Shown: positions 164 through 16,289 of the stretch, piece by piece
How positions within the stretch are numbered: the stretch's first letter is position 1
How the letters are laid out: the number at the start of each line of letters is the position of its first letter
Source of the DNA: Oscillospiraceae bacterium
GTDB taxonomy: Bacteria; Bacillota; Clostridia; Oscillospirales; Oscillospiraceae
NCBI GenBank assembly: GCA_017622995.1
Contig: JAGAQA010000009.1
Coordinates: forward strand, 1-64,000
Direction: 5' to 3'
Length of the DNA stretch: 64,000 bases
The notes under the pieces: generated by a model
The model's database searches: none
Seen by the model: the letters and a program-made list of their open reading frames with translations, nothing else
What the model was told of the DNA's origin: nothing
Translations under genes and position numbers: made by a program

Positions 164-1519
164 TTACAGCAGACCCTGAATGAGGATCACCAGAATCAGA
201 ATGGGCAGTACAAACTGAAAGAAGGGCTTCATCCACCCGGCGATTTTCAGGCCCTTGCCGGTGTTGGCTTCTTTCTGGTAGTTTTCAAAGCCCCAGCCCC
301 ATTTGGTCACACAGAACAACAGGTAAATCAGGGAGCCCAGAGGCAGCAGCAGATTGCTGACCAGAAAATCCTCGCTGTCCAGCACATCCCGGGCGCCAAT
401 CAGGTGGAGATTGCTCCAGACGTTGTAGCCCAGCACACAGGGCATACTGGCAATCAGAATGAACACACAGTTAATGGTGGCGGCTTTTTTCCGGTTCCAG
501 CCCAGGGTATCCATACAGAAGGACATCAGATTCTCAAAGACGGCGATGACCGTGGAGAAGCTGGCAAAGGTCATAAAAAGGAAGAAAAGACTGCCCCAGA
601 TCCGGCCCCCGGGCATATTCACAAAGACATTGGGCAGGGTGATGAAAATCAATTTGGGGCCGGCGTTTACGTCCACGCCGTAGCTGAAGCAGGCAGGGAA
701 GATGATGAGGCCCGCCATCAGGGCAACGAAGGTGTCCAGGGCGCAGATCCGGGCGCCCTCACCGGCCAGGGTATTGTCCTTGCTCATGTAGCTGCCGAAA
801 ATCTCCATGGCGGCCACCCCCAGGCTCAGGGTGAAGAACGCCTGATTCATGGCAGCCGAAACCACATTGCCCACACCGGCGGAGCGGACATTCTCCCAGT
901 TGGGCACCAGGTAGAAGCGCAAGCCCTCTCCCGCGCCGGAAAGGGTCAGGCTGTGAACGGCCAGCACCACAATGAGGATCAGAAGACCGGTCATCATGAA
1001 CTTGCTGATCTTTTCCAGACCGGCCTGCAGGCCCCGGCTGCAAATGAAAAAGCCCAGCAGGACGGTTACCGCCATCCAAAAGGTCATTTCTTTGGGGGAA
1101 GCCAGCATTTGGGCAAAGGCCTCTGCGCAGAATGCGGCGTCGGCATCCGCGGGGAACCGGCCGGCGGCAAACTGATAGAAGTAGCTCACCATCCAGCCGG
1201 AAACGGTGGTGTAGTACATCATCAGCAGATAGCAGCCCAGAATGGCAAACCAGCCGTGGATATGCCAGTGGCTGCCTTCCTTTTCCAGAGCCCTGTAGCC
1301 CTGGACGGCGCTCTTGCGGCTGGCACGTCCCACCGCCAGCTCCATGGTCAGCACCGGCAGACCCATAATCACGAGAAACAGCAAATACAGGGCCACAAAC
1401 CAGCCGCCGCCGTTCTGCCCCACAACATAGGGGAATTTCCACACATTGCCGATGCCGACGGCACAGCCCGCGCTGACCAGCAAAAAGCCAAGGCGGGACC
1501 GAAAGGATTCTCTTTCCAT
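164..1519 (-). CDS. sodium-dependent transporter, NSS (SNF) family
   Basis: Sodium-coupled symporter of the neurotransmitter:sodium symporter family, expected to import an amino acid or related compound across the cytoplasmic membrane. The signature GIGNVWKFPY is at residues 22-31 (unwound part of TM1), followed by NGGGWF and further hydrophobic segments through the C-terminal FVLPILILVILIQGLL. Length (451 aa) fits bacterial NSS proteins such as LeuT or MhsT. I chose the ATG at 1519 because GGAG lies 7 bases upstream; the ATG at 1525 is too close to it. It is divergent from the LysR gene at 1785, a possible regulator. Substrate cannot be read from the sequence. Confidence 0.9.
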   Translation of the reverse strand: MERESFRSRLGFLLVSAGCAVGIGNVWKFPYVVGQNGGGWFVALYLLFLVIMGLPVLTMELAVGRASRKSAVQGYRALEKEGSHWHIHGWFAILGCYLLMMYYTTVSGWMVSYFYQFAAGRFPADADAAFCAEAFAQMLASPKEMTFWMAVTVLLGFFICSRGLQAGLEKISKFMMTGLLILIVVLAVHSLTLSGAGEGLRFYLVPNWENVRSAGVGNVVSAAMNQAFFTLSLGVAAMEIFGSYMSKDNTLAGEGARICALDTFVALMAGLIIFPACFSYGVDVNAGPKLIFITLPNVFVNMPGGRIWGSLFFLFMTFASFSTVIAVFENLMSFCMDTLGWNRKKAATINCVFILIASMPCVLGYNVWSNLHLIGARDVLDSEDFLVSNLLLPLGSLIYLLFCVTKWGWGFENYQKEANTGKGLKIAGWMKPFFQFVLPILILVILIQGLL

Positions 1520-1553
1520 TTCCATGCTCCTCTTTTCGTATCTATTCAGTCGC

Positions 1554-4981: not shown

Positions 4982-5839
4982 CTATTCTAGTTCGCTGAAT
5001 TCCCAGACACTGCTCATACCATAATCCAAATAGATTATCTGACCGCTCATGTAGCTAAAGATTTGGCTGCCTATGGCAACAAGGGGATATCCCATTTCCT
5101 CAGGAGTTGCCCAGTGGCCATTCCAACTATCCAAAAACAGAGCCTCGATTACAGCTTTTCCTTCCTCCGCGTTGCCGGTGGGAGAAGTGCCTCTGTTAAA
5201 GTCTTCGGTTAAGCCGGTTGTTGTGTTTCCTGGATTGATGGCGTTTAGGCGGATCTTTCGGTCAATATATTCCGGCTCGTGAACTTTGGCTTTCACATAG
5301 GTACACAAACACTGCTTGGAAAAAACATAACCGCTGGCGATCGTATCGGGATGTGTTTCATACCATCGGATCGCATCTTCATAGGTTTCCGTATTGATTA
5401 CTTCCATACACTCGGGCACATGACTTTGCCAGTCGTAACCGCCGGTGGAGGAAATAATATTTATCGAACCTCGATCGCATACCTTATGCAGACTCTTTTC
5501 CAACAGATATTTGTGCCCCAGGAAATTGACCCTTTGTACCTCCAGCGTATTGGAACCGTCATTTTTCAGGGCAATGCCGTGGCAAAGAAACATGGCATAA
5601 ATATTATCAGGCAGCGCCTCTGCCAGAAGATCCAGATCCTCTTTGCACCCGAAATCTGCATACAGGATCTTCTTTACAGGAAAATCCAATGTATTATGCC
5701 TGCCGTTGCGGCGGCAAATGGCATATACATCCGCACCCAGTTGGGAAAGCAGGCGGGCAGCCGCCAATCCCATACCGGAGAAAGCGCCGCTGATTACCAC
5801 AGTTTTTCCCTCGTAACCAAATAAATGTTGCAAATCCAT
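4982..5839 (-). CDS. SDR oxidoreductase, 3-alpha-HSDH/carbonyl-reductase-like
   Basis: Short-chain dehydrogenase/reductase, NAD(P)-dependent alcohol/ketone oxidoreductase, 285 aa. The nucleotide-binding loop is ISGAFSGMG (about residues 16-24); the NNAG position is LCHGIA; catalytic Ser is in IISSTGG; Tyr/Lys are in SGYVFSKQ. About 35-40 residues separate Ser and Tyr instead of the usual dozen, an insertion also seen in Comamonas 3-alpha-hydroxysteroid dehydrogenase and related carbonyl reductases, so the substrate is probably bulky. It is the last gene of the minus-strand operon starting at 8877, 54 bases after the other SDR. Substrate unknown; steroid, lignan-like or other aromatic carbinols are possibilities. 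Confidence 0.8.
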   Translation of the reverse strand: MDLQHLFGYEGKTVVISGAFSGMGLAAARLLSQLGADVYAICRRNGRHNTLDFPVKKILYADFGCKEDLDLLAEALPDNIYAMFLCHGIALKNDGSNTLEVQRVNFLGHKYLLEKSLHKVCDRGSINIISSTGGYDWQSHVPECMEVINTETYEDAIRWYETHPDTIASGYVFSKQCLCTYVKAKVHEPEYIDRKIRLNAINPGNTTTGLTEDFNRGTSPTGNAEEGKAVIEALFLDSWNGHWATPEEMGYPLVAIGSQIFSYMSGQIIYLDYGMSSVWEFSELE

Positions 5840-5893
5840 TTTCCATTCCTCCTCTGGTAGAAAAGGGGCACAGAATATCTGTGCCCCGGTTGA

Positions 5894-6655
5894 TTAGAAG
5901 CAGGTCCAGCCGCCGTCGCAGGTGATAATGGTGCCGTTGATGAAATGGGATTCATCACTGGCAAGGAACAGCGCCGCGTTGGCGATATCCTCGGGCATAC
6001 CCATTTCCGGAGAATGCGCCAGCAGAGAACTGGTGCGTTCAAATCCGAATTCGTTTGCCTTAGGCATGACCAGCGGGATATCGGTAAGAATGCCGCCGGG
6101 TGAAATACCATTGCAGCGGATACCTTTGTCAATGTACATGAACGCGGTGTTCTTGATGGCGGAGGCAATCGCCGCCTTGGAGGCACAATAGGCGACACCT
6201 GCGGTCTGGTGGAACGCACCTACGGAAGCGACATTGATAATATTGCCCTGGTCCTCATCCTGCTCCAGGAACACTTTGACTGCCTTTCGCATGGCGTACA
6301 GAGGGCCATAGGTGTTGACCCGGAACAGACGGTCGATCATCTCATCGGACACGTCACCGATGGCGGTATTGTCATCCATAATACCGGCATTGTTCACCAG
6401 CACATCCAGTCGGCCAAATTCCTTAACTGCCGCATCGATCATACCTTCACACACGGCAGGATCGGATACATCACCGGCATAGGGCACTACCTTGCCGGGG
6501 GCATCCTTTAATTCTTCAGCCAGTGCTTCCAGACGTTCTTTTCTGCGTGCAACTGCAATGATATTAGCACCCTCCTGGGCAAACAGTGTCACAATTGCCT
6601 GTCCCATACCAGCAGAGGCGCCGGTGACGACGATAGATTTTCCTTCCAGTTTCAT
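5894..6655 (-). CDS. classical SDR-family oxidoreductase
   Basis: 253-aa classical SDR. TGASAGMG (residues 11-18) binds the dinucleotide; ARRKER after beta-2 is compatible with NADP; NNAG is at about 88-91; catalytic Ser is in NVASVGAF and Tyr/Lys in VAYCASK; the C-terminal FINGTIITCDGGW closes the fold. Such proteins interconvert alcohols and ketones in the cytoplasm. It starts 2 bases after the GcvT-like gene stops, so the two are translationally linked. The FabG-like pattern does not define the substrate; context suggests a catabolic role together with the 4982 SDR. Confidence 0.85.
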   Translation of the reverse strand: MKLEGKSIVVTGASAGMGQAIVTLFAQEGANIIAVARRKERLEALAEELKDAPGKVVPYAGDVSDPAVCEGMIDAAVKEFGRLDVLVNNAGIMDDNTAIGDVSDEMIDRLFRVNTYGPLYAMRKAVKVFLEQDEDQGNIINVASVGAFHQTAGVAYCASKAAIASAIKNTAFMYIDKGIRCNGISPGGILTDIPLVMPKANEFGFERTSSLLAHSPEMGMPEDIANAALFLASDESHFINGTIITCDGGWTCF

Positions 6656-6657
6656 AG

Positions 6658-7653
6658 TTAAATCCAGCCTTTCTTCACAATGATGGCGGGAGAATCGTTG
6701 CAGCCCACCGTTACCCGATTGCCTTCCATCGCTTTGCGGGCGTCGATTACCGCGTAACCGATATTCTTATCGACGGTATAGCCGTAAATTGCCGTTTTTA
6801 CCCTGCCGCAGGGAACGCCTTTATAGTAGACGATCTCCATCTGGGCAATGTCCTCATAGGATTCTGCCAGATACTCAAGACCTACCAGCAGCTTTTTGGG
6901 GCCATCCTCCTTTGCTTTTACAAGGGCATCACGACCAATGAAGTCCTTGTTCAGATCTACGGACCAGTCAAGCCCACACTCGTAGGGGGTCAGCAGGTAC
7001 ATATCCTGACGCAGGGCAAATCCCTTTTCCGTCGGGAGGCTGCGGACATAGACCTCCAGCGTGGTAACCTCTGGGGCGTTGTGGGCATCGCAGGCGGCGC
7101 GGATGGCAGCCTTCACTGCGGCGGTATCTGCCATGTCGCAGTAGACCTCGAAGCCGTTTTCGCCGGTGAAGCCGCTGCGGTGGATGATGACGGGAATGTC
7201 ACCGATTTTGTTGTCGGCAACCTGAAAACGCTTCAGGTTGTCCACAGGAACGGACAGCAGGGTGTTCATCACGGCAGGGGAATTGGGACCCTGGATGGCG
7301 TACATATCCATCTCACCGGTCATATCCCGGTAGTCAACATCGCTGTCGCCCTTATGCGCATCCATCCAGCTCACCATCTGGGGCGCATACAGGGTGGAAA
7401 CCCAGTACAGATTTTCGCCCATGTGCATGACAATGGTATCGTCGATGATCTTCCCATCTTCATTGAGCATGGTGGTATACTTGGTGCGTCCAATATCGGC
7501 TTTGGCGATGTTGTTCACAAATAGGCGATCCAGAAAGGTCAAAGCATCCTTTCCTTTGACCTCCACCAGATCGTGAGTCCAGCGGTACCAACCGGCGTTC
7601 TCCCGGACAGCCTGATGCTGGGCGCGTGCAACGGAATCTTCGCGGAATAACAT
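6658..7653 (-). CDS. GcvT-like tetrahydrofolate-dependent (O-)demethylase/aminomethyltransferase
   Basis: 331 aa, aminomethyltransferase fold. The GcvT-type N-terminal region (DALTFLDRLFVNNI, YTTMLNEDGKIIDDTIV), middle domain (YAIQGPNSPAVM, HRSGFTGENGFEVYC) and C-terminal barrel (LTPYECGLDWSVDLNKDFIG) are all visible. No gcvH, gcvP or lpd lies nearby, so a role in glycine cleavage is unlikely. The neighbours fit the LigM/DesA/DmdA-type branch, which moves a methyl group from an ether, amine or sulfonium to tetrahydrofolate. It lies 18 bases after the 7672 gene and is followed by two SDRs. Which methylated compound is used cannot be told from the sequence. Confidence 0.7.
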   Translation of the reverse strand: MLFREDSVARAQHQAVRENAGWYRWTHDLVEVKGKDALTFLDRLFVNNIAKADIGRTKYTTMLNEDGKIIDDTIVMHMGENLYWVSTLYAPQMVSWMDAHKGDSDVDYRDMTGEMDMYAIQGPNSPAVMNTLLSVPVDNLKRFQVADNKIGDIPVIIHRSGFTGENGFEVYCDMADTAAVKAAIRAACDAHNAPEVTTLEVYVRSLPTEKGFALRQDMYLLTPYECGLDWSVDLNKDFIGRDALVKAKEDGPKKLLVGLEYLAESYEDIAQMEIVYYKGVPCGRVKTAIYGYTVDKNIGYAVIDARKAMEGNRVTVGCNDSPAIIVKKGWI

Positions 7654-7671
7654 TTGGGTCAGCCTCCTTCC

Positions 7672-8877
7672 TTATACCATGCGCTTGTCGATCTTTCTGC
7701 CGACAACGATGGTCATTTCTTCTTCATCCTTATCCTCAAACCAGCAGGACCATTCCGGCGAAACCAGAGTTTTGACCATGTTGTGCCACAGCGTCTCATA
7801 GCCCAGAATCAGCTCGTCGATGGGCGCCATCTCAAAACGACCGGTGAAGGTTTCCACATTTACCTTGATTCGCACTTCGTCCTTGGTGAACGCCTCCAGC
7901 TCGCTGGGCACAAACTGGGTATCCAGAATGTTCTTGATGTATCCGCCCATCAGACGGGGATCGTTCCAGCCGATTTCGTGGGGCACACCCAGCCAGCTGC
8001 GCAGTCCTTCCTTGGCGAAAGGTTCGATAAACTCGTTTTTACCGGCAGTCGCAAAGACGATTTTGAAGATACGCTCAAATTCTTCTTCCGAGTCTGCCAT
8101 TTCGCGGATGGCAATCAACGGGAAGGCAACACACCAGACCCAGCCCTTCTCCATGCTCCAGCGGTAAGCCCATTCCAGGGACTTCTCTTCGCCGAAGGCC
8201 TGAGAGTAACAGCCGTTCCGAATGAACTGACCGTCCCGTACTGTCCGCTCCTCCGGCGTATCGTGGATGGGCATAACGGGGGTGCCCATGTGATCCAGCC
8301 AGCCCTGCTTGGGCAGGTTGAAGGTATCCCGGCGCTCTGCCACCACGCGGCACTTCCGATCACCGCAGCCTCTGGCTTCGCACATATTCAGCGAAACCTC
8401 GTTTTCACCGGGCACGGCGGATTCAATGTCAAAGTTCGCGGTGAACATGGCGGTGGTCATGTTACACAGCTCCGCACCGACGATGTCCCAAGGGCAGGCA
8501 TCCAGCTCTTTTTCCACCCGATCCCGGGTGAACTGAATTACACGTCCTGCCATGTTCTGGTATTCATCGCCGGAGTCGCCCACGATACCGCCCAGCCAGG
8601 CGCACCGGTCGCAGAACTCCGGGATATTCCACTCGCCGTAAAACGCGGCCTTGTAGTCGTCGCTGCAGGCAGACATGTTGAACATATAAGATGTTTCGCA
8701 AATTGCCTCAGTCCGCTTGTTAAAGTCGGGTTCCAGAATTCGCATGACCTGGAAGATATTTGCGGTGAAAGCAGCAATGTGCCGAAGCGCATAGCTGTAG
8801 GCTTCCCGTTCCGGGATCAGCTTTCCCCATACAGTGGTGACGCATTTTGTTTGATTGAGTTTGTCGTTCAGCGGCAT
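7672..8877 (-). CDS. uncharacterised protein with V4R/XylR_N-like Cys motif
   Basis: 401 aa, soluble, first gene of the operon. Around residues 180-200 the pattern NMCEARGCGDRKCRVVAE resembles the CxxxGxxxC motif of V4R/XylR_N small-molecule (often aromatic) binding domains. About 20 further residues in the protein are Trp or Cys, including CPWDIVGAELC and WVWCVAFPL. No DNA-binding domain, signal peptide or membrane segment is evident. It could be a substrate-binding partner of the GcvT-like protein or an enzyme of an unnamed family (I also considered the ATC hydrolase family). It is divergent from the PucR regulator at 9131. Function unknown. Confidence 0.6.
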   Translation of the reverse strand: MPLNDKLNQTKCVTTVWGKLIPEREAYSYALRHIAAFTANIFQVMRILEPDFNKRTEAICETSYMFNMSACSDDYKAAFYGEWNIPEFCDRCAWLGGIVGDSGDEYQNMAGRVIQFTRDRVEKELDACPWDIVGAELCNMTTAMFTANFDIESAVPGENEVSLNMCEARGCGDRKCRVVAERRDTFNLPKQGWLDHMGTPVMPIHDTPEERTVRDGQFIRNGCYSQAFGEEKSLEWAYRWSMEKGWVWCVAFPLIAIREMADSEEEFERIFKIVFATAGKNEFIEPFAKEGLRSWLGVPHEIGWNDPRLMGGYIKNILDTQFVPSELEAFTKDEVRIKVNVETFTGRFEMAPIDELILGYETLWHNMVKTLVSPEWSCWFEDKDEEEMTIVVGRKIDKRMV

Positions 8878-8952
8878 AGTTTAACCTCCCTTAGCCGGCA
8901 GCCGGGCCGGACTTCATATCCAAACTCATTGTAACGGGGCGGATGTTGCTTG

Positions 8953-8990
8953 GACAGACAGCAATCTGTCGGTTTTTCTGAGAAAAAACC
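8953..8990. promoter_or_regulatory. twin inverted repeats between operon and PucR gene
   Basis: Two adjacent dyads lie in the divergent intergenic region: GACAGA/TCTGTC (8953-8970) and GGTTTTT/AAAAAACC (8971-8990). They are candidate operators for the regulator encoded at 9131, or part of the operon leader. No experimental support. Confidence 0.4.
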
Positions 8991-9057
8991 ATACATTTTG
9001 TTGGGTGGTAAAAGAAAGGGAAGATAGTAATTTTCTGAGGAAAAGTATTGAATACTG

Positions 9058-9066
9058 TGTTATAAT
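9058..9066 (+). promoter_or_regulatory. extended -10 promoter of the PucR gene
   Basis: TG-T-TATAAT at 9058-9066 is an extended -10 element without a good -35, about 65 bases before the ATG at 9131. A weak -35 fits promoters that need an activator. Confidence 0.45.
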
Positions 9067-9130
9067 AAAAAATATTGAGAGGAACTGCGAAAGATATCTA
9101 TTTTCCATCCGACAAAACAGGGGTGTGTGT

Positions 9131-10681
9131 ATGAAGCTGAGTGCCAATCTGATTTTTGACAATCTCCCGGCGGAATTGGATGTCGTTTACCATGGTCAGA
9201 GGGAATCCACCCTGCATCTTCTCCGTCCGGAATTCCTTGAAAAGGGACAGGAGCGTTTTCGTGCGGATCACGTTTATTTGGTGAAGGCACAGGATCTGCC
9301 GTTGCGTCCCCGGATTGAACCGGGCGCGCTGATTCTTCTGCTGGGTGACAGCGTGTACCTGCCCCGCTATGAGGGAAAGTGCAATGTGATTCAGCTCCGG
9401 GGGGATGTCCGAAGCAGCCATGCGTTTAATCTTGTGAGCCGTATCTATAACCGCTTTGACCGATGGGAAGAATCCCTGCGGAAGATACTTGACACCACCG
9501 CTAGTCTGAGTGAAATGATTCAGTGCAGCCGGGAGATATTCGACAATCCCATTGTGGTGCTCAATTCCAATTTTCACTATCTGGCGCATACGGATTTCAG
9601 CTTTGTGGAATTGGGAAAGATGGACAGAATCAGCTGGGGCAGCAGGGAAAGCACAGGCCTTCCGCTGGAGTCCCTGAACGAATTTATGGAGCTGCATGAG
9701 ATGTCCACCAATGTCAGAGAACCGCTGCTCCTGAACCTTCCTGGCAGCACAACATTGAACGTGAATCTTTTTGAGAATGGGGAATATTCCGGCTGCCTGT
9801 CCGTGGATTATCGGAACAGAAAGTACCGGGAAAGTGATAAGCAGCTGGCAATTTATCTTGCGGAAATGATTCAGCTTGCGCTTCGCCGCTACTCCTCGGT
9901 GTCCGGGAGTGACCAGAGCAGACTGCGGCAGGCACTGATGGACATCGTAGATGGCGTTCAGGTAACCCTGAATCAGCGCAGAACCATCGATACGTCCTAT
10001 CTGGAGCAGGAGCATATCTGCGTAAAGATCAAGTTCCGAAGTCCTCTGGTTCAGCTTCCGGTCAAGTACCTTTGCAATGCCATAGAGGATGAATTTCGCA
10101 GAAGCGTCGCGTTTGAATACGACGAGGCACTGATTTGCTTTATCGAAATATCCAGGCAGCAGGCTGAGGAGGAAAGCTATCTAACACTCCTTCAAAAGCA
10201 TCTGACGCCGTTGCTGCGGGCTTTTGACAGCAGCGTAGGAATCAGCGACCCGTTCCATGACATCTATCAGGCCAGACCCTATTATTATCAGGCCTGCGCC
10301 GCAGTGGAAAATGGCCAGTTGTTTGATTCTGAGAAGATGTTCTACCCATTCCAGGACTACGCGCTCCGGGAGCTTTTGATCAATGCCATCGGGAATCTAC
10401 CGATGGAAATGTATTACACACAGGGGTTGCAGAACCTTATGCGCCATGATCTGGATTCTCAGGTCAGCTATATGGAAACGCTGCGCACTTTTCTGGACTG
10501 CAACATGAGCGTAACGAAAACCACGGCAAAGCTGTATCTGAACCGAAGCACACTGATCGAACGCCTTGCGCGGATCAAGCGAGAGCTGAACTGTGATCTG
10601 GAGGACCCGGAACAGCGGCTCCTGCTTCAGATCCTTCTGAAGGCTCAGCAAATTCACGGAGAAATTGGACACAAAGTATAA
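9131..10681 (+). CDS. PucR-type transcriptional regulator
   Basis: 516 aa. The C-terminus (about 450-516: LRTFLDCNMSVTKTTAKLYL, NRSTLIERLARIKRELNCDL) is the HTH_30 domain typical of PucR/CdaR regulators. The middle has GAF-like and GGDEF-derived features, and the N-terminus is an unrecognised sensor region. PucR proteins usually activate catabolic genes in response to their substrate. The start is the ATG at 9131 preceded by AGGGG; the frame is open further upstream, but no better start exists. Divergent from the demethylase/SDR operon, so that operon is its likely target. It is read against a bidirectional terminator at 10683. Confidence 0.85.
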   Translation: MKLSANLIFDNLPAELDVVYHGQRESTLHLLRPEFLEKGQERFRADHVYLVKAQDLPLRPRIEPGALILLLGDSVYLPRYEGKCNVIQLRGDVRSSHAFNLVSRIYNRFDRWEESLRKILDTTASLSEMIQCSREIFDNPIVVLNSNFHYLAHTDFSFVELGKMDRISWGSRESTGLPLESLNEFMELHEMSTNVREPLLLNLPGSTTLNVNLFENGEYSGCLSVDYRNRKYRESDKQLAIYLAEMIQLALRRYSSVSGSDQSRLRQALMDIVDGVQVTLNQRRTIDTSYLEQEHICVKIKFRSPLVQLPVKYLCNAIEDEFRRSVAFEYDEALICFIEISRQQAEEESYLTLLQKHLTPLLRAFDSSVGISDPFHDIYQARPYYYQACAAVENGQLFDSEKMFYPFQDYALRELLINAIGNLPMEMYYTQGLQNLMRHDLDSQVSYMETLRTFLDCNMSVTKTTAKLYLNRSTLIERLARIKRELNCDLEDPEQRLLLQILLKAQQIHGEIGHKV

Positions 10682-10726: not shown

Positions 10727-10939
10727 TTAGCCGAGTGCCTTCAGCTTTTCATCGATTTCTGCCAGCTGTTCTGCGCTCAGACCGGCTTGGGGGAAGGAGC
10801 AGAGCTTGCGGAAGGTCAGTGCGCCCACCAGCTTCATCTGGGGATCCGTCTTAAAGCCGGGGGAGTACTGCGCGATAATGTCGCTGGCGGCCTCGCTCTT
10901 TCTTAAGTCCTTCACCTTGGTATCAATTGAAAATGCCAT
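10727..10939 (-). CDS. small DUF1858-like stand-alone domain protein
   Basis: 70 aa: MAFSIDTKVKDLRKSEAASD, then IIAQYSPGFKTDPQMKLV and a Leu/Glu-rich C-terminal helix. The length and helix pattern resemble the DUF1858-like domain that occurs alone or at one end of some flavin-dependent reductases and hydrolases (recognition from memory, weak). AGAGGAGG lies 8 bases before the ATG at 10939, deciding this start over an upstream one. It is inside the tRNA-Val island and convergent with the PucR gene. No catalytic residues are evident; it may be a partner of one of the island enzymes. Confidence 0.6.
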   Translation of the reverse strand: MAFSIDTKVKDLRKSEAASDIIAQYSPGFKTDPQMKLVGALTFRKLCSFPQAGLSAEQLAEIDEKLKALG

Positions 10940-13476: not shown

Positions 13477-14895
13477 TTACGCGGCGGCGTTTTGCGCCTG
13501 GGCCAGGTAGAATTCCTCCCGCTCCTGCTTCTGCTGGTCCAGGTAATCCTGAACCTTCACAAGACCGTCCTGGACCAGGGCCATTGTCCGGTCGTAGGAA
13601 CGCTGGGCGGCGTTGAATTCATTTTCGGTCATGTTGTAGGTTTCCTTCCACTGATCCCGGGTGCTGTCGTTGAGGGCAACGATGTTATATTGCCGGGAGC
13701 CGTTGTTGGTGTTCAGGTTCACCCAGGTGGGGACCACCTCCACACGGTCCAGGTATACGGTGCCGTCGGAATACTTGGAGAAGGTGACCTTAAAGAACAC
13801 ACCGTCTTCTGTATGGGGGGTGTTGATGGTGCTGATGTTTCCGGCACGCTGATTGGATACGGCGTTGCCCATGGAGTAGAGAATGGCGGTTTTGTGGTTG
13901 GGGTCTACGGTGCTTTCAATCAGATCCACAGGCTGGACCACATGGGGATGGCCGCCCACGATGACGTCCACGCCCAGGTCGCAGAGCTGCTGGGCCATAT
14001 TGGCCTGATCCTGGTTGGCGGAGAGCTGGTATTCCACACCCCAGTGGATGTAGAGCATGGTTGCCTCCGCTCCGGCATCCTTCATTTCCTGAAGGTAGGT
14101 TTCCACCTCAGAATAGAAGGCAGGCAGGTTGCTGTAGGTGAAGTAGTTGCACAGACCCGGTTCGCTGATGGCGGCGTTTCCGTTGAGCTGGGGGCTGCCG
14201 TTGGAGCCCACACCGGTGGCGTAGGTGTAGCACAAAAGACCGATTTTGATGCCGTTCACATCCTGAATGGTCCATTTCTGCTCGTCCGCGGACAGATAGG
14301 TGCCCAGGGTTTCCAGCCCCGCCTCCCGGACCACCTCCAGTGTGCGCTTGAAGCCCACAAGGGTGGTATCGTAGCTGTGGTTGTTGGCGGTGAGCAGCAT
14401 ATCAAAGCCCGCGTTCTTCAGGGCATCCACAATGGCATCGGGGCAGTTAAAGTTGGGGAAACCGGAATAGTTGTAGCCGTTGTCGGTACCGGCCAGGGTG
14501 GTTTCCAGGTTGGCAACCGCAAGATCCGCGGCGGAAATCTCGTCGGTTACGAAGCGGAAGATGGAATCAAAGTTGTAGCCGTCGGGGCCGGAACCGGACC
14601 CGATTACCGGCATATGCATCAGAACGTCGCCGGTGGAGAGAATGGTGGCGGTGGACACCTCATGCTCCGGCTCCGGCATGGTTGTGGGGGGCTCTGTTTC
14701 CGGCTCTGTGGTGGGAGGCTCCGTGGCTTCCTCCGTGGCAATGGTGGGAGGCTCTGTGGGGGCGGGCGCCTGGGCGGTGGGAATGGAAACGCACAGCCAG
14801 ATGGCGCCGGCATTGAGAATCAGCAGCACAATGATCAGCGCGATCAGCACACCGACAATGGCAGAGCCTTGTTTTTTACGATTGAAAAAGGGCAT
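13477..14895 (-). CDS. CapA-family (PGA_cap) metallophosphatase-like protein
   Basis: 472 aa. One N-terminal membrane segment (about residues 10-32), a Pro/Thr/Glu-rich linker to about residue 75, then the PGA_cap domain outside the cell. Metal-site motifs are TGDVLMH, NLETTLAG, LTANNHSYDT and VGGHPHVVQPVD. CapA/PgsA proteins take part in poly-gamma-glutamate or other capsule handling, though most relatives lack a capBC partner, as here. AAGGAGG lies 6 bases before ATG. It is a tandem paralogue of the next gene upstream (14907), 11 bases apart. The C-terminus is extended by a charged coiled region. Confidence 0.85.
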   Translation of the reverse strand: MPFFNRKKQGSAIVGVLIALIIVLLILNAGAIWLCVSIPTAQAPAPTEPPTIATEEATEPPTTEPETEPPTTMPEPEHEVSTATILSTGDVLMHMPVIGSGSGPDGYNFDSIFRFVTDEISAADLAVANLETTLAGTDNGYNYSGFPNFNCPDAIVDALKNAGFDMLLTANNHSYDTTLVGFKRTLEVVREAGLETLGTYLSADEQKWTIQDVNGIKIGLLCYTYATGVGSNGSPQLNGNAAISEPGLCNYFTYSNLPAFYSEVETYLQEMKDAGAEATMLYIHWGVEYQLSANQDQANMAQQLCDLGVDVIVGGHPHVVQPVDLIESTVDPNHKTAILYSMGNAVSNQRAGNISTINTPHTEDGVFFKVTFSKYSDGTVYLDRVEVVPTWVNLNTNNGSRQYNIVALNDSTRDQWKETYNMTENEFNAAQRSYDRTMALVQDGLVKVQDYLDQQKQEREEFYLAQAQNAAA

Positions 14896-14906
14896 GAATT
14901 TCCTCC

Positions 14907-16289
14907 TTAGGCGGCGTCATCCGTGGACGCGGGGGCTTCTCTGGCTTCCTTCTGACCGGAAAGGTAGCTCTGTACTTTTTCCAGGCCCTGGGAAACAATC
15001 TGGTTGGTGCGGTTCAGGGATGCTTTGGCGTTCAGGATCTGAACATCGGTCAGGCCGAAGCGCTCCTGCCACTGGGTGGCAATGGACACATCCAGGGGGA
15101 TGATGTTGTACTCGGTTTTTCCGCTGTTGGCGTGCATATTCACCCAGGTGGGGATCAGCTCAACGGCGTCCAGGCAAACGGTTCCGTCCGGGTATTTGGC
15201 AAAGGTAACGCTGAAAAGGGCGCCGTCCTCGGTTTCACCGGTGGTCAGGGTGGTCATTTCTTCCTTGCGCTGATTGGATACGGCGTTGCCCAGAGAGTAG
15301 AGCACCACGGTGGCGTGGCCCGGATCGGTGGTGCTTTGCAGCAAATCCACAGGCTCCAGCACATGGGGGTGGCTGCCCACGATGGCGTCAATGCCCATGT
15401 CGCAGAGCTTCTGGGCCATGGCCTGCTGGTCCTTGTTGGCGGAAAGCTTGTATTCCTCGCCCCAGTGCATGTACACCAGCGTGGCCTCCACACCGGCGGC
15501 CTTCATTTCATCCAGATAGGTCTGCACCTGGGCGTAGAATTCCGGCAGCTTGTCATAGGTGAAGTAGCTGAGTAAGCCCGGCTCCGGCACCTCGTTGTAG
15601 TTGAGCACCGGGTTGCCGTTTGGAGCGAAGCCATCGGAATAGCAAAAACACATCACGCCGATTTTGATTCCGTTGATGTCCAGCATGGTCCACTTCTGCT
15701 CGTCCGCTGTGAGATAGGTGCCCAGGGTTGCCAGGCCCTTTTCCCGCACCACCTCCAGTGTGCGCTTGTAGCCCACAATGGTGGTGTCCATGCTGTGGTT
15801 GTTGGCGGTGAGCAGCATATCAAAGCCCGCGTCCCGGGCGCTGTCCACCAGGGCATCGGGGCAGTTAAACTTGGGATTGCCGGAATAGGCAAAGCCCTTG
15901 TCCGTACCGCACAGGGTAGTTTCCAGATTGGCGACGGCGTAGTCCGCCTTGCCGGTGTAGGGGGCGATGTAGCGGAAGATGCTCTCAAAATCGTAGCTGC
16001 CGTCCTCCTGCTTGCCGCTGTTGATGACCTTCTTGTGCATCAGCAAATCACCGGTGGAGAGAATGGTGGCGGTGGAAACGGGCGCCGGGGGAGCCTCTGT
16101 TTCGGTGGGATCACCGATGGTCTCTATGGGACTGGCCGTGGGCTTTTGGGTGTCCTCTTTTTTCCCGGTGCGCAGGCACAGAGAGATGACGGCAATGTCC
16201 GCGATAGCCAAAACCGCAATCAGGATACTCAGAATGACCACAATGGGGGGGCGTGGGGGCGTGGGACGGCCCTTATATGTATTGGGCAT
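14907..16289 (-). CDS. CapA-family (PGA_cap) protein, tandem paralogue
   Basis: 460 aa with the same plan as the 13477 gene: N-terminal anchor (about residues 16-37), short acidic/Thr/Pro linker, then PGA_cap with TGDLLMH, NLETTLCG, LTANNHSMDT and VGSHPHVLEPVD. The two share long stretches and clearly arose by duplication. GGAGG precedes the ATG. It lies 37 bases downstream of alr. Since alanine racemase supplies D-alanine for peptidoglycan, the pair may act on cell-wall or capsule peptides, but substrate and activity are inferred only from the family. Confidence 0.85.
   Translation of the reverse strand: MPNTYKGRPTPPRPPIVVILSILIAVLAIADIAVISLCLRTGKKEDTQKPTASPIETIGDPTETEAPPAPVSTATILSTGDLLMHKKVINSGKQEDGSYDFESIFRYIAPYTGKADYAVANLETTLCGTDKGFAYSGNPKFNCPDALVDSARDAGFDMLLTANNHSMDTTIVGYKRTLEVVREKGLATLGTYLTADEQKWTMLDINGIKIGVMCFCYSDGFAPNGNPVLNYNEVPEPGLLSYFTYDKLPEFYAQVQTYLDEMKAAGVEATLVYMHWGEEYKLSANKDQQAMAQKLCDMGIDAIVGSHPHVLEPVDLLQSTTDPGHATVVLYSLGNAVSNQRKEEMTTLTTGETEDGALFSVTFAKYPDGTVCLDAVELIPTWVNMHANSGKTEYNIIPLDVSIATQWQERFGLTDVQILNAKASLNRTNQIVSQGLEKVQSYLSGQKEAREAPASTDDAA

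Follow-up and report, generated by a model that had tools for sequence, protein, structure and literature searches.

A conserved PucR-linked operon of gut anaerobes encodes a GcvT-like protein and a partner outside known families that may together form a corrinoid-free one-carbon transferase

We analysed a stretch of 64,000 nucleotides (hereafter the window; positions 1 to 64,000 of contig JAGAQA010000009.1, assembly GCA_017622995.1) from an Oscillospiraceae bacterium, concentrating on an operon that encodes a GcvT-like protein and, directly upstream of it, a 401-amino-acid (aa) protein that we call X. An earlier note, made from the letters of the window alone, had described the region as a four-gene operon beside a PucR-type regulator and had likened it to the demethylation systems of lignin catabolism. 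The features of the locus are listed below, SDR standing for short-chain dehydrogenase.

7672..8877, minus strand: X, 401 aa, in no known family; proposed substrate-binding or substrate-activating partner of the GcvT-like enzyme
6658..7653, minus strand: GcvT-like one-carbon (C1) transferase, 331 aa, presumed to depend on tetrahydrofolate (THF); matches to GCV_T and GCV_T_C
5894..6655, minus strand: SDR2, a classical short-chain dehydrogenase (adh_short_C2, 186.6 bits); third gene of the core
5865..5887, minus strand: terminator-like hairpin between SDR2 and SDR1, with a 10-pair stem and a T-rich tail; from a consensus scan
4982..5839, minus strand: SDR1, a divergent, apparently accessory SDR; its nearest NCBIfam model, under cut-off, is coniferyl-alcohol dehydrogenase
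9131..10681, plus strand, divergent from X: PucR-type regulator (HTH_30, 62.2 bits; GGDEF_2, 26.3 bits)
10727..10939, minus strand: c4, a small protein of 70 aa and possible fifth component; no Pfam match over cut-off
8878..9130, no strand: divergent promoter region between X and PucR, aligned with relatives, with a GGGAGG resembling a ribosome-binding site before X

Gaps of 18 bp and 2 bp separate X from the GcvT-like gene and the GcvT-like gene from SDR2, and comparison of the window with locus L013 indicated strong purifying selection on X (dN 0.001, dS 0.168), on the GcvT-like gene (dN 0.009, dS 0.267) and on SDR2 (dN 0.023, dS 0.484). The five genes named in the earlier note (SDR1, SDR2, the GcvT-like gene, X and PucR) lie where it had placed them, apart from the start of PucR, which it had set at 9005. 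Its homologues likewise start with the MKL- segment, so the most likely start is the ATG at 9131; the C-terminal HTH_30 domain of the regulator scored well over its cut-off of 27 bits. The c4 gene had been overlooked.

We scanned a collection of species genomes with an alignment of X and confirmed 100 relatives, 80 of which were retained for locus counts. Together with four fetched stretches and the window these gave 85 X loci, many on short contigs and with three likely duplicate contig pairs (L008/L073, L009/L090 and L010/L015). The X alignment comprised 52 rows, L066 (whose coordinates run into stop codons) and near-identical or cut loci being omitted, and for the same reasons the GcvT-like alignment held 47 rows as against 78 adjacent genes. 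X was rare in the genomes sampled, with 3 of 60 relatives, 3 of 391 genomes of the class and 3 of 398 of the phylum carrying it, the window's own genome counted each time. Its carriers were mainly Clostridia and Coriobacteriia, and many genome titles name the rumen, the rectum or other gut sites; strains with X include Cuneatibacter sp. NSJ-177, Lachnoclostridium sp. An131, Olsenella sp. Marseille-P4559, Fusibacter paucivorans DSM 12116 and Alkalibacter mobilis. In the X tree the group with the window takes in both Bacillota and Actinomycetota; relatives 34-37% identical make up another deep group. A search of plasmids for X gave zero matches and none of 30 pattern matches in viral contigs was confirmed.

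In 78 of the 79 loci that could be read at this position, the gene immediately downstream of X is GcvT-like (in 75 of 76 once the three likely duplicates are removed), an adjacency that therefore cannot be put down to chance. At the sole exception, L085, X is followed by a 112-aa reading frame that an earlier pass had labelled GcvT-like (31% identity). Next but one after X comes an SDR (match above 60 bits) in 59 of 72 loci, and a PucR gene stands upstream of X divergently in 65 of 77 loci and in the same direction in four. The operon is real and conserved: the genes recur together in other genomes, and the proposal that this is an accessory locus with a PucR-type regulator next to it is supported.

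The four-gene operon of the earlier note stands as far as X, the GcvT-like gene and SDR2 are concerned; SDR1 does not belong to this core. Among the 85 loci, many of them on short contigs, seven carry an SDR1-like gene, which at L077, L091 and L092 lies on the other strand from X; since the hairpin also separates SDR2 from SDR1, the latter looks like a variable accessory. Our terminator scan found four sites in the region against 6.9 expected from shuffles, so the support that it gives to the hairpin at 5887-5865 is weak. SDR1 scored 137.1 bits against the coniferyl-alcohol dehydrogenase model NF009092, under its cut-off of 242. Members of the c4 family occur in 41 of 85 loci, all of them outside the distant group of X loci that starts at L070; c4 lies tail-to-tail with PucR in the window, and at five loci (L042, L046, L055, L062 and L063) it comes immediately after the operon's SDR or an SDR-cluster gene. 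A c4-like domain (36%) also ends a 518-aa protein (L164) encoded in G041, a genome from the same order for which we found no X. An inverted-repeat operator spotted by eye in the X/PucR region was rejected, its strict pattern occurring in one of the 50 regions from clade A and one of the 12 from clade B and its loose pattern in 3 and 1 respectively, with shuffle maxima of 2 to 4 and no convincing enrichment.

Neither Pfam nor NCBIfam gave X a match over curated cut-offs, and the PDB gave no significant one, whether we searched with the single sequence or with a profile of 52 members (E 0.18 at best with the profile). Three cysteines are conserved, Cys128 and Cys176 in 52 of 52 members and Cys138 in 51; residue 175, beside the invariant Cys176, is His in 50 of 52, the window's protein and one further member having Lys. 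Profile comparison gave no similarity to the ATC hydrolases (P 0.16) or to the GcvT-like protein itself (P 0.23). The earlier note had seen in X a cysteine motif like that of V4R aromatic sensors, a resemblance that is weakly supported. X 133-185 aligns with the end of V4R, the GDxxC region (HHalign P 0.0042), at a score of 27.7 that exceeds 60 of 60 column shuffles (best 25.9) although the HHalign probability is only 8.1%, and none of the 52 members matched V4R (PF02830) in Pfam at E up to 1. The zinc ligands of V4R in DmpR are C151, E172, C177 and C185 (PMC7264223). By spacing, the C185 position corresponds to Cys176 of X (52 of 52) and that of C177, eight residues earlier, to Ala168, likewise in 52 of 52, so the zinc site is not kept. 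Compared with the V4R domain of DmpR/XylR sensors and 4-vinyl reductase, X can be aligned weakly over the GDxxC region and differs in this alanine; it might have a V4R-like pocket and have lost the zinc.

The GcvT-like protein matches GCV_T at 156.5 bits (cut-off 25.6), from model position 30, and GCV_T_C at 37.3 bits, and falls under the cut-offs of both GcvT models in NCBIfam (TIGR00528, 150.1 against 235.85; NF001567, 177.4 against 300). Further NCBIfam scores were likewise under cut-off: the trimethylamine N-oxide (TMAO) demethylase Tdm 130.8 (cut-off 1100), SoxA 119 and DmdA 110 bits, followed by DesA at 81.8 (cut-off 800) and LigM at 68.3 (cut-off 580), the two lowest of eight GcvT-superfamily scores. 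The 47 relatives were placed in a tree alongside 22 true GcvTs, six reference domains also being included and a LigM-like protein serving as the root; L117, a fused open reading frame, was omitted, and L118 and the fragments or own-family members L119-L122 were not taken as true GcvT. The 47 relatives formed one clade (support 1.0) apart from the 22 true GcvTs (0.971), and lay nearer to the SOX/DMGO/TDM domains than to true GcvT, with weak support (0.78). By these sequence criteria the protein belongs neither with the true GcvTs nor with LigM.

A relict or housekeeping GcvT or YgfZ that happens to lie beside an unrelated operon would account for the GCV_T domain. It would leave unexplained the separate clade, the score under the GcvT cut-offs and the adjacency to X; the motif that we take to mark YgfZ, KGC(Y/F)xGQE, is absent from all 47 relatives, the window's genome lacks a GcvH match, and the Cuneatibacter locus L088 has a separate GcvT-domain gene and gcvH/gcvP-like genes beside its X locus. 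A stray GcvT or YgfZ is thereby effectively excluded and we regard it as highly improbable. Neither outcome that the earlier note had named as fatal to its own proposal came about: the protein does not group with the 22 true GcvTs and lacks the YgfZ motif, and the genes do recur together.

The setting of the gene in its genome points the same way. The assembly, of 2.55 Mb in 66 contigs and with a listed completeness of 100%, contains a single gene with a GCV_T domain, the GcvT-like gene itself, and no match to GcvH (PF01597), which is present in 13 of 14 control genomes, in 10 of them over cut-off. Within the limits of the assembly, this rules out a role in glycine cleavage, and the earlier description of a GcvT-like enzyme without the rest of the glycine cleavage system was correct. 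Its further claim that corrinoid methyltransferase genes are lacking holds for the corrinoid cap domain PF02607, the only corrinoid domain searched, which is unmatched in the genome and present in 9 of 14 controls. One Fhs over cut-off and one MetF are encoded, both away from the locus. The segment before the residue at Arg17 is shorter than in GcvT, with 16-32 residues in the 47 relatives (16 in the window's protein; the choice of start is uncertain in the longest) and at least 38 in 23 GcvTs. The N-terminal region of T protein has been reported to be essential for its action on H protein (PMC7733448).

Asp72, which aligns with Asp96 of Thermotoga maritima GcvT, and Glu169 are invariant in all 47 relatives. 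We take Asp96 to have a catalytic role, and on these residues the GcvT-like protein is likely to use folate. We looked at C1 genes around X over 84 loci, the window excluded, in a total of 1.16 Mb; at about 2.5 Mb per genome, chance would give about 0.5 copy of a single-copy gene. Fhs occurs in 5, FchA in 7 and FolD in 7 of the 84 loci, eight loci in all (L027, L031, L032, L033, L049, L068, L074 and L083), and neither MetF (two queries) nor PurU (one query) was found in any. On the X tree, from which L032 is absent, the linkage requires six changes for seven labelled rows; it arose or was retained in several lineages. In a small plasmid comparison of six GcvT-domain stretches, a LigM-like gene of Agrobacterium adjoins a MetF-type gene and purU, a long GcvT-domain gene adjoins folD and purU, and a FAD-dependent oxidoreductase with a GcvT domain adjoins a FolD-type gene. 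The FolD/FchA/Fhs linkage and the plasmid comparison together favour 5,10-methylene-THF over 5-methyl-THF as the intermediate; 5-methyl-THF, the product that the earlier note had proposed to assay, is thus not favoured (MetF 0 of 84 loci, FolD 7).

Were the protein a demethylase of the LigM/DesA/DmdA type, an intact methyl group (aryl-O-CH3 or similar) would pass to 5-methyl-THF and on to MetF encoded elsewhere, with X as a helper. The genome does have one MetF, SDR1 is nearest to coniferyl-alcohol dehydrogenase, and LigM, DesA and DmdA are GcvT-like demethylases of the same superfamily (PMC5547118). Yet LigM at 68 and DesA at 82 bits stand at the bottom of the superfamily scores, SDR1 is not conserved, and MetF adjoins none of the 84 loci against seven for FolD, when the LigM-like gene of the Agrobacterium plasmid does adjoin a MetF-type gene and purU. 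We consider this reading rather unlikely, and the parallel with lignin catabolism in the earlier note finds no support in scores of 177 for GcvT, 131 for TMAO demethylase and 119 for SoxA against 82 for DesA and 68 for LigM.

A methylene product would also suit a demethylenase, in which the pair would open a methylenedioxy ring such as that of sesamin or berberine and yield 5,10-methylene-THF with no redox change; FolD, FchA and Fhs without MetF fit such a product, and BrdA and SesA are THF-dependent demethylenases of the GcvT superfamily, as described in PMC5547118. Purified BrdA (457 aa), however, was active with THF alone and free of a partner, and work cited in the same paper found that berberine is not metabolised anaerobically by intestinal bacteria; opening of the methylenedioxy ring of lignans is credited to liver P450 enzymes in a review (PMC7914952). 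Of the alternatives that involve folate this seems to us the least probable.

The pathway could also run towards synthesis. Fhs-FchA-FolD reactions are reversible, and formate would be taken by Fhs and FchA/FolD to methylene-THF, from which X and the GcvT-like protein would hydroxymethylate or methylate the SDR product. A divergent ketopantoate-hydroxymethyltransferase-like gene, by its family a user of methylene-THF, is present in 6 of 84 loci and would fit this direction. The scattered, accessory occurrence of X (3 of 391 genomes of the class, with the window's counted) speaks against it, and the dedicated regulator and the MFS and dehydrogenase genes near some loci look catabolic; we hold it to be improbable, marginally less so than a demethylenase.

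The reading that we lean towards is that X and the GcvT-like protein are a two-part enzyme which transfers a C1 group from a small organic compound to THF without oxygen or corrinoid. What we observed are the genes, their conservation and linkage, the clade, the conserved residues and the lack of GcvH and of the corrinoid cap domain; we infer complex formation, folate use, direction, substrate and the role of X. X would bind the substrate, activate it or both, filling the role that P and H proteins, flavin domains or the DUF1989 domain have in other GcvT-domain systems, and the GcvT-like protein, judging by its conserved residues, would be the folate half. The SDR may oxidise or reduce a hydroxyl or carbonyl group that this compound carries, either ahead of the loss of the C1 unit or following it. 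That unit would most probably be released at the level of formaldehyde as 5,10-methylene-THF, which FolD, FchA and Fhs could then oxidise towards formate with a gain of ATP, and PucR would switch the operon in response to the substrate. The THF-dependent demethylenases BrdA and SesA set a precedent in the superfamily (PMC5547118). More tentatively, and short of an even chance in our estimation, X may represent a new family that makes up, with its GcvT-like partner, an undescribed two-protein enzyme, corrinoid-free and oxygen-independent, by which gut Clostridia and Coriobacteriia remove C1 groups; in some of them its methylene-THF would go to an adjacent FolD-FchA-Fhs energy module.

Several observations weigh against a folate-linked two-part enzyme. 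The column of Escherichia coli Tyr101 holds Met, Phe, Thr or Trp in all 47 relatives and Tyr in 22 of 23 GcvTs, and that of Arg223 holds Arg in 15 of 47 relatives as against 23 of 23 GcvTs; this column mapping is our own and agrees with the Phe and Leu reported for Tdm. TMAO demethylase has neither residue and its use of folate has been called probably vestigial (PMC12560246), so that folate use here can be called likely at most. C1 genes are linked in just 8 of 84 loci. The number of changes on the X tree may be inflated by short-flank loci having been scored as unlinked. Three of the six plasmid GcvT-domain stretches, that of sarcosine oxidase included, have no adjoining C1 gene, so the link between FolD and a methylene product rests on few cases. 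Fhs, FchA and FolD could run towards methylene-THF, making C1 donation possible, and their linkage carries no direction. In favour of the pairing, distance matrices of 48 of the 85 loci (full length, with SDR and PucR present and some near-copies removed) correlated at 0.946 between X and the GcvT-like protein, 0.863 between X and SDR and 0.747 between X and PucR; shared history inflates these values.

Set beside known systems, the GcvT-like protein resembles GcvT in its GCV_T and GCV_T_C domains and in Asp72 and Glu169, and departs from it in its own clade, shorter N-terminus, lower score, lack of GcvH and partner X. After the two GcvT models its best score was that of Tdm (DUF1989 plus GcvT), and the Tyr101-type tyrosine is replaced in both (PMC12560246); Tdm has its own metal-binding domain fused to it (same source), whereas X is separate and unrelated. 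DUF1989 had no match in any of the five locus proteins. The T domains of sarcosine oxidase alpha and dimethylglycine dehydrogenase are the nearest in the tree, at the weak support given above, and two long plasmid GcvT-domain genes adjoin FolD-type genes as some X loci do. Sarcosine oxidase and dimethylglycine dehydrogenase use a flavin domain, many of them with oxygen, and differ in this from the present operon, which contains no flavoprotein gene. With LigM, DesA and DmdA the protein shares the superfamily and corrinoid-free C1 transfer to THF, and is set apart from them by scores far under cut-off (68, 82 and 110 bits), by the lack of MetF at all 84 loci and by X, which here looks like an obligate partner. 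SesA and BrdA, compared by description only, likewise belong to the superfamily and transfer a C1 unit to THF without oxidation; BrdA and its tabulated homologues have 429-476 aa and no partner protein is described for them in the portions of PMC5547118 consulted.

The kind of enzyme is already known; the novelty lies in X as its partner and in a gut setting free of corrinoid. Demethylation by gut anaerobes is usually credited to corrinoid methyltransferases, and to our knowledge the THF-dependent GcvT-like demethylases are all from aerobes; a conserved corrinoid-free C1 module in anaerobes of two phyla would, if true, broaden both pictures. It would also offer a function for an unannotated family of 400-aa proteins and a clue to the dietary or host compounds that are demethylated, and could explain an unassigned demethylation, demethylenation or dehydroxymethylation reaction of the gut. 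The presumably cultivated named strains (NSJ-177, An131, Marseille-P4559 and DSM 12116) make the gene set testable. The open-access literature that we searched, limited in its coverage, held no published description of this gene set or its function. Overall the earlier interpretation was borne out in its non-cleavage GcvT-like enzyme, the absence of the corrinoid domain and the co-occurrence of the genes, and was not in its lignin parallel and the core role of SDR1.

Neighbours beyond the core pointed to no substrate; they include MFS and Zn-dehydrogenase genes at a few loci and an amidohydrolase at L086. The six loci with a divergent ketopantoate-hydroxymethyltransferase-like gene in their flanks are L007 (11201-12187), L024, L036, L037, L068 and L086, and the gene scored 115.6 bits against PF02548 and 83.5 against panB (vs 207.55 bits). 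At the Cuneatibacter sp. NSJ-177 locus (L088:3-6578) the separate GcvT-domain gene encodes 403 aa and lies directly beside the PucR-X-GcvT-like operon, which is adjoined there by gcvH-, gcvP-half- and lipoate-protein-ligase-like genes, labels that are our own and taken from sequence. Related sodium-dependent transporters of the SNF family lie near the X operon in 2 of 85 loci, possibly by chance (window 164-1525, minus strand, and L022:16005-17351). Two adjacent genes of the window (13477-14895 and 14907-16289, minus strand) encode similar proteins of 472 and 460 aa that fall into one blast cluster and distantly resemble the model of the lasso-peptide epimerase MslH (34.1 and 39.5 bits, cut-off 700).

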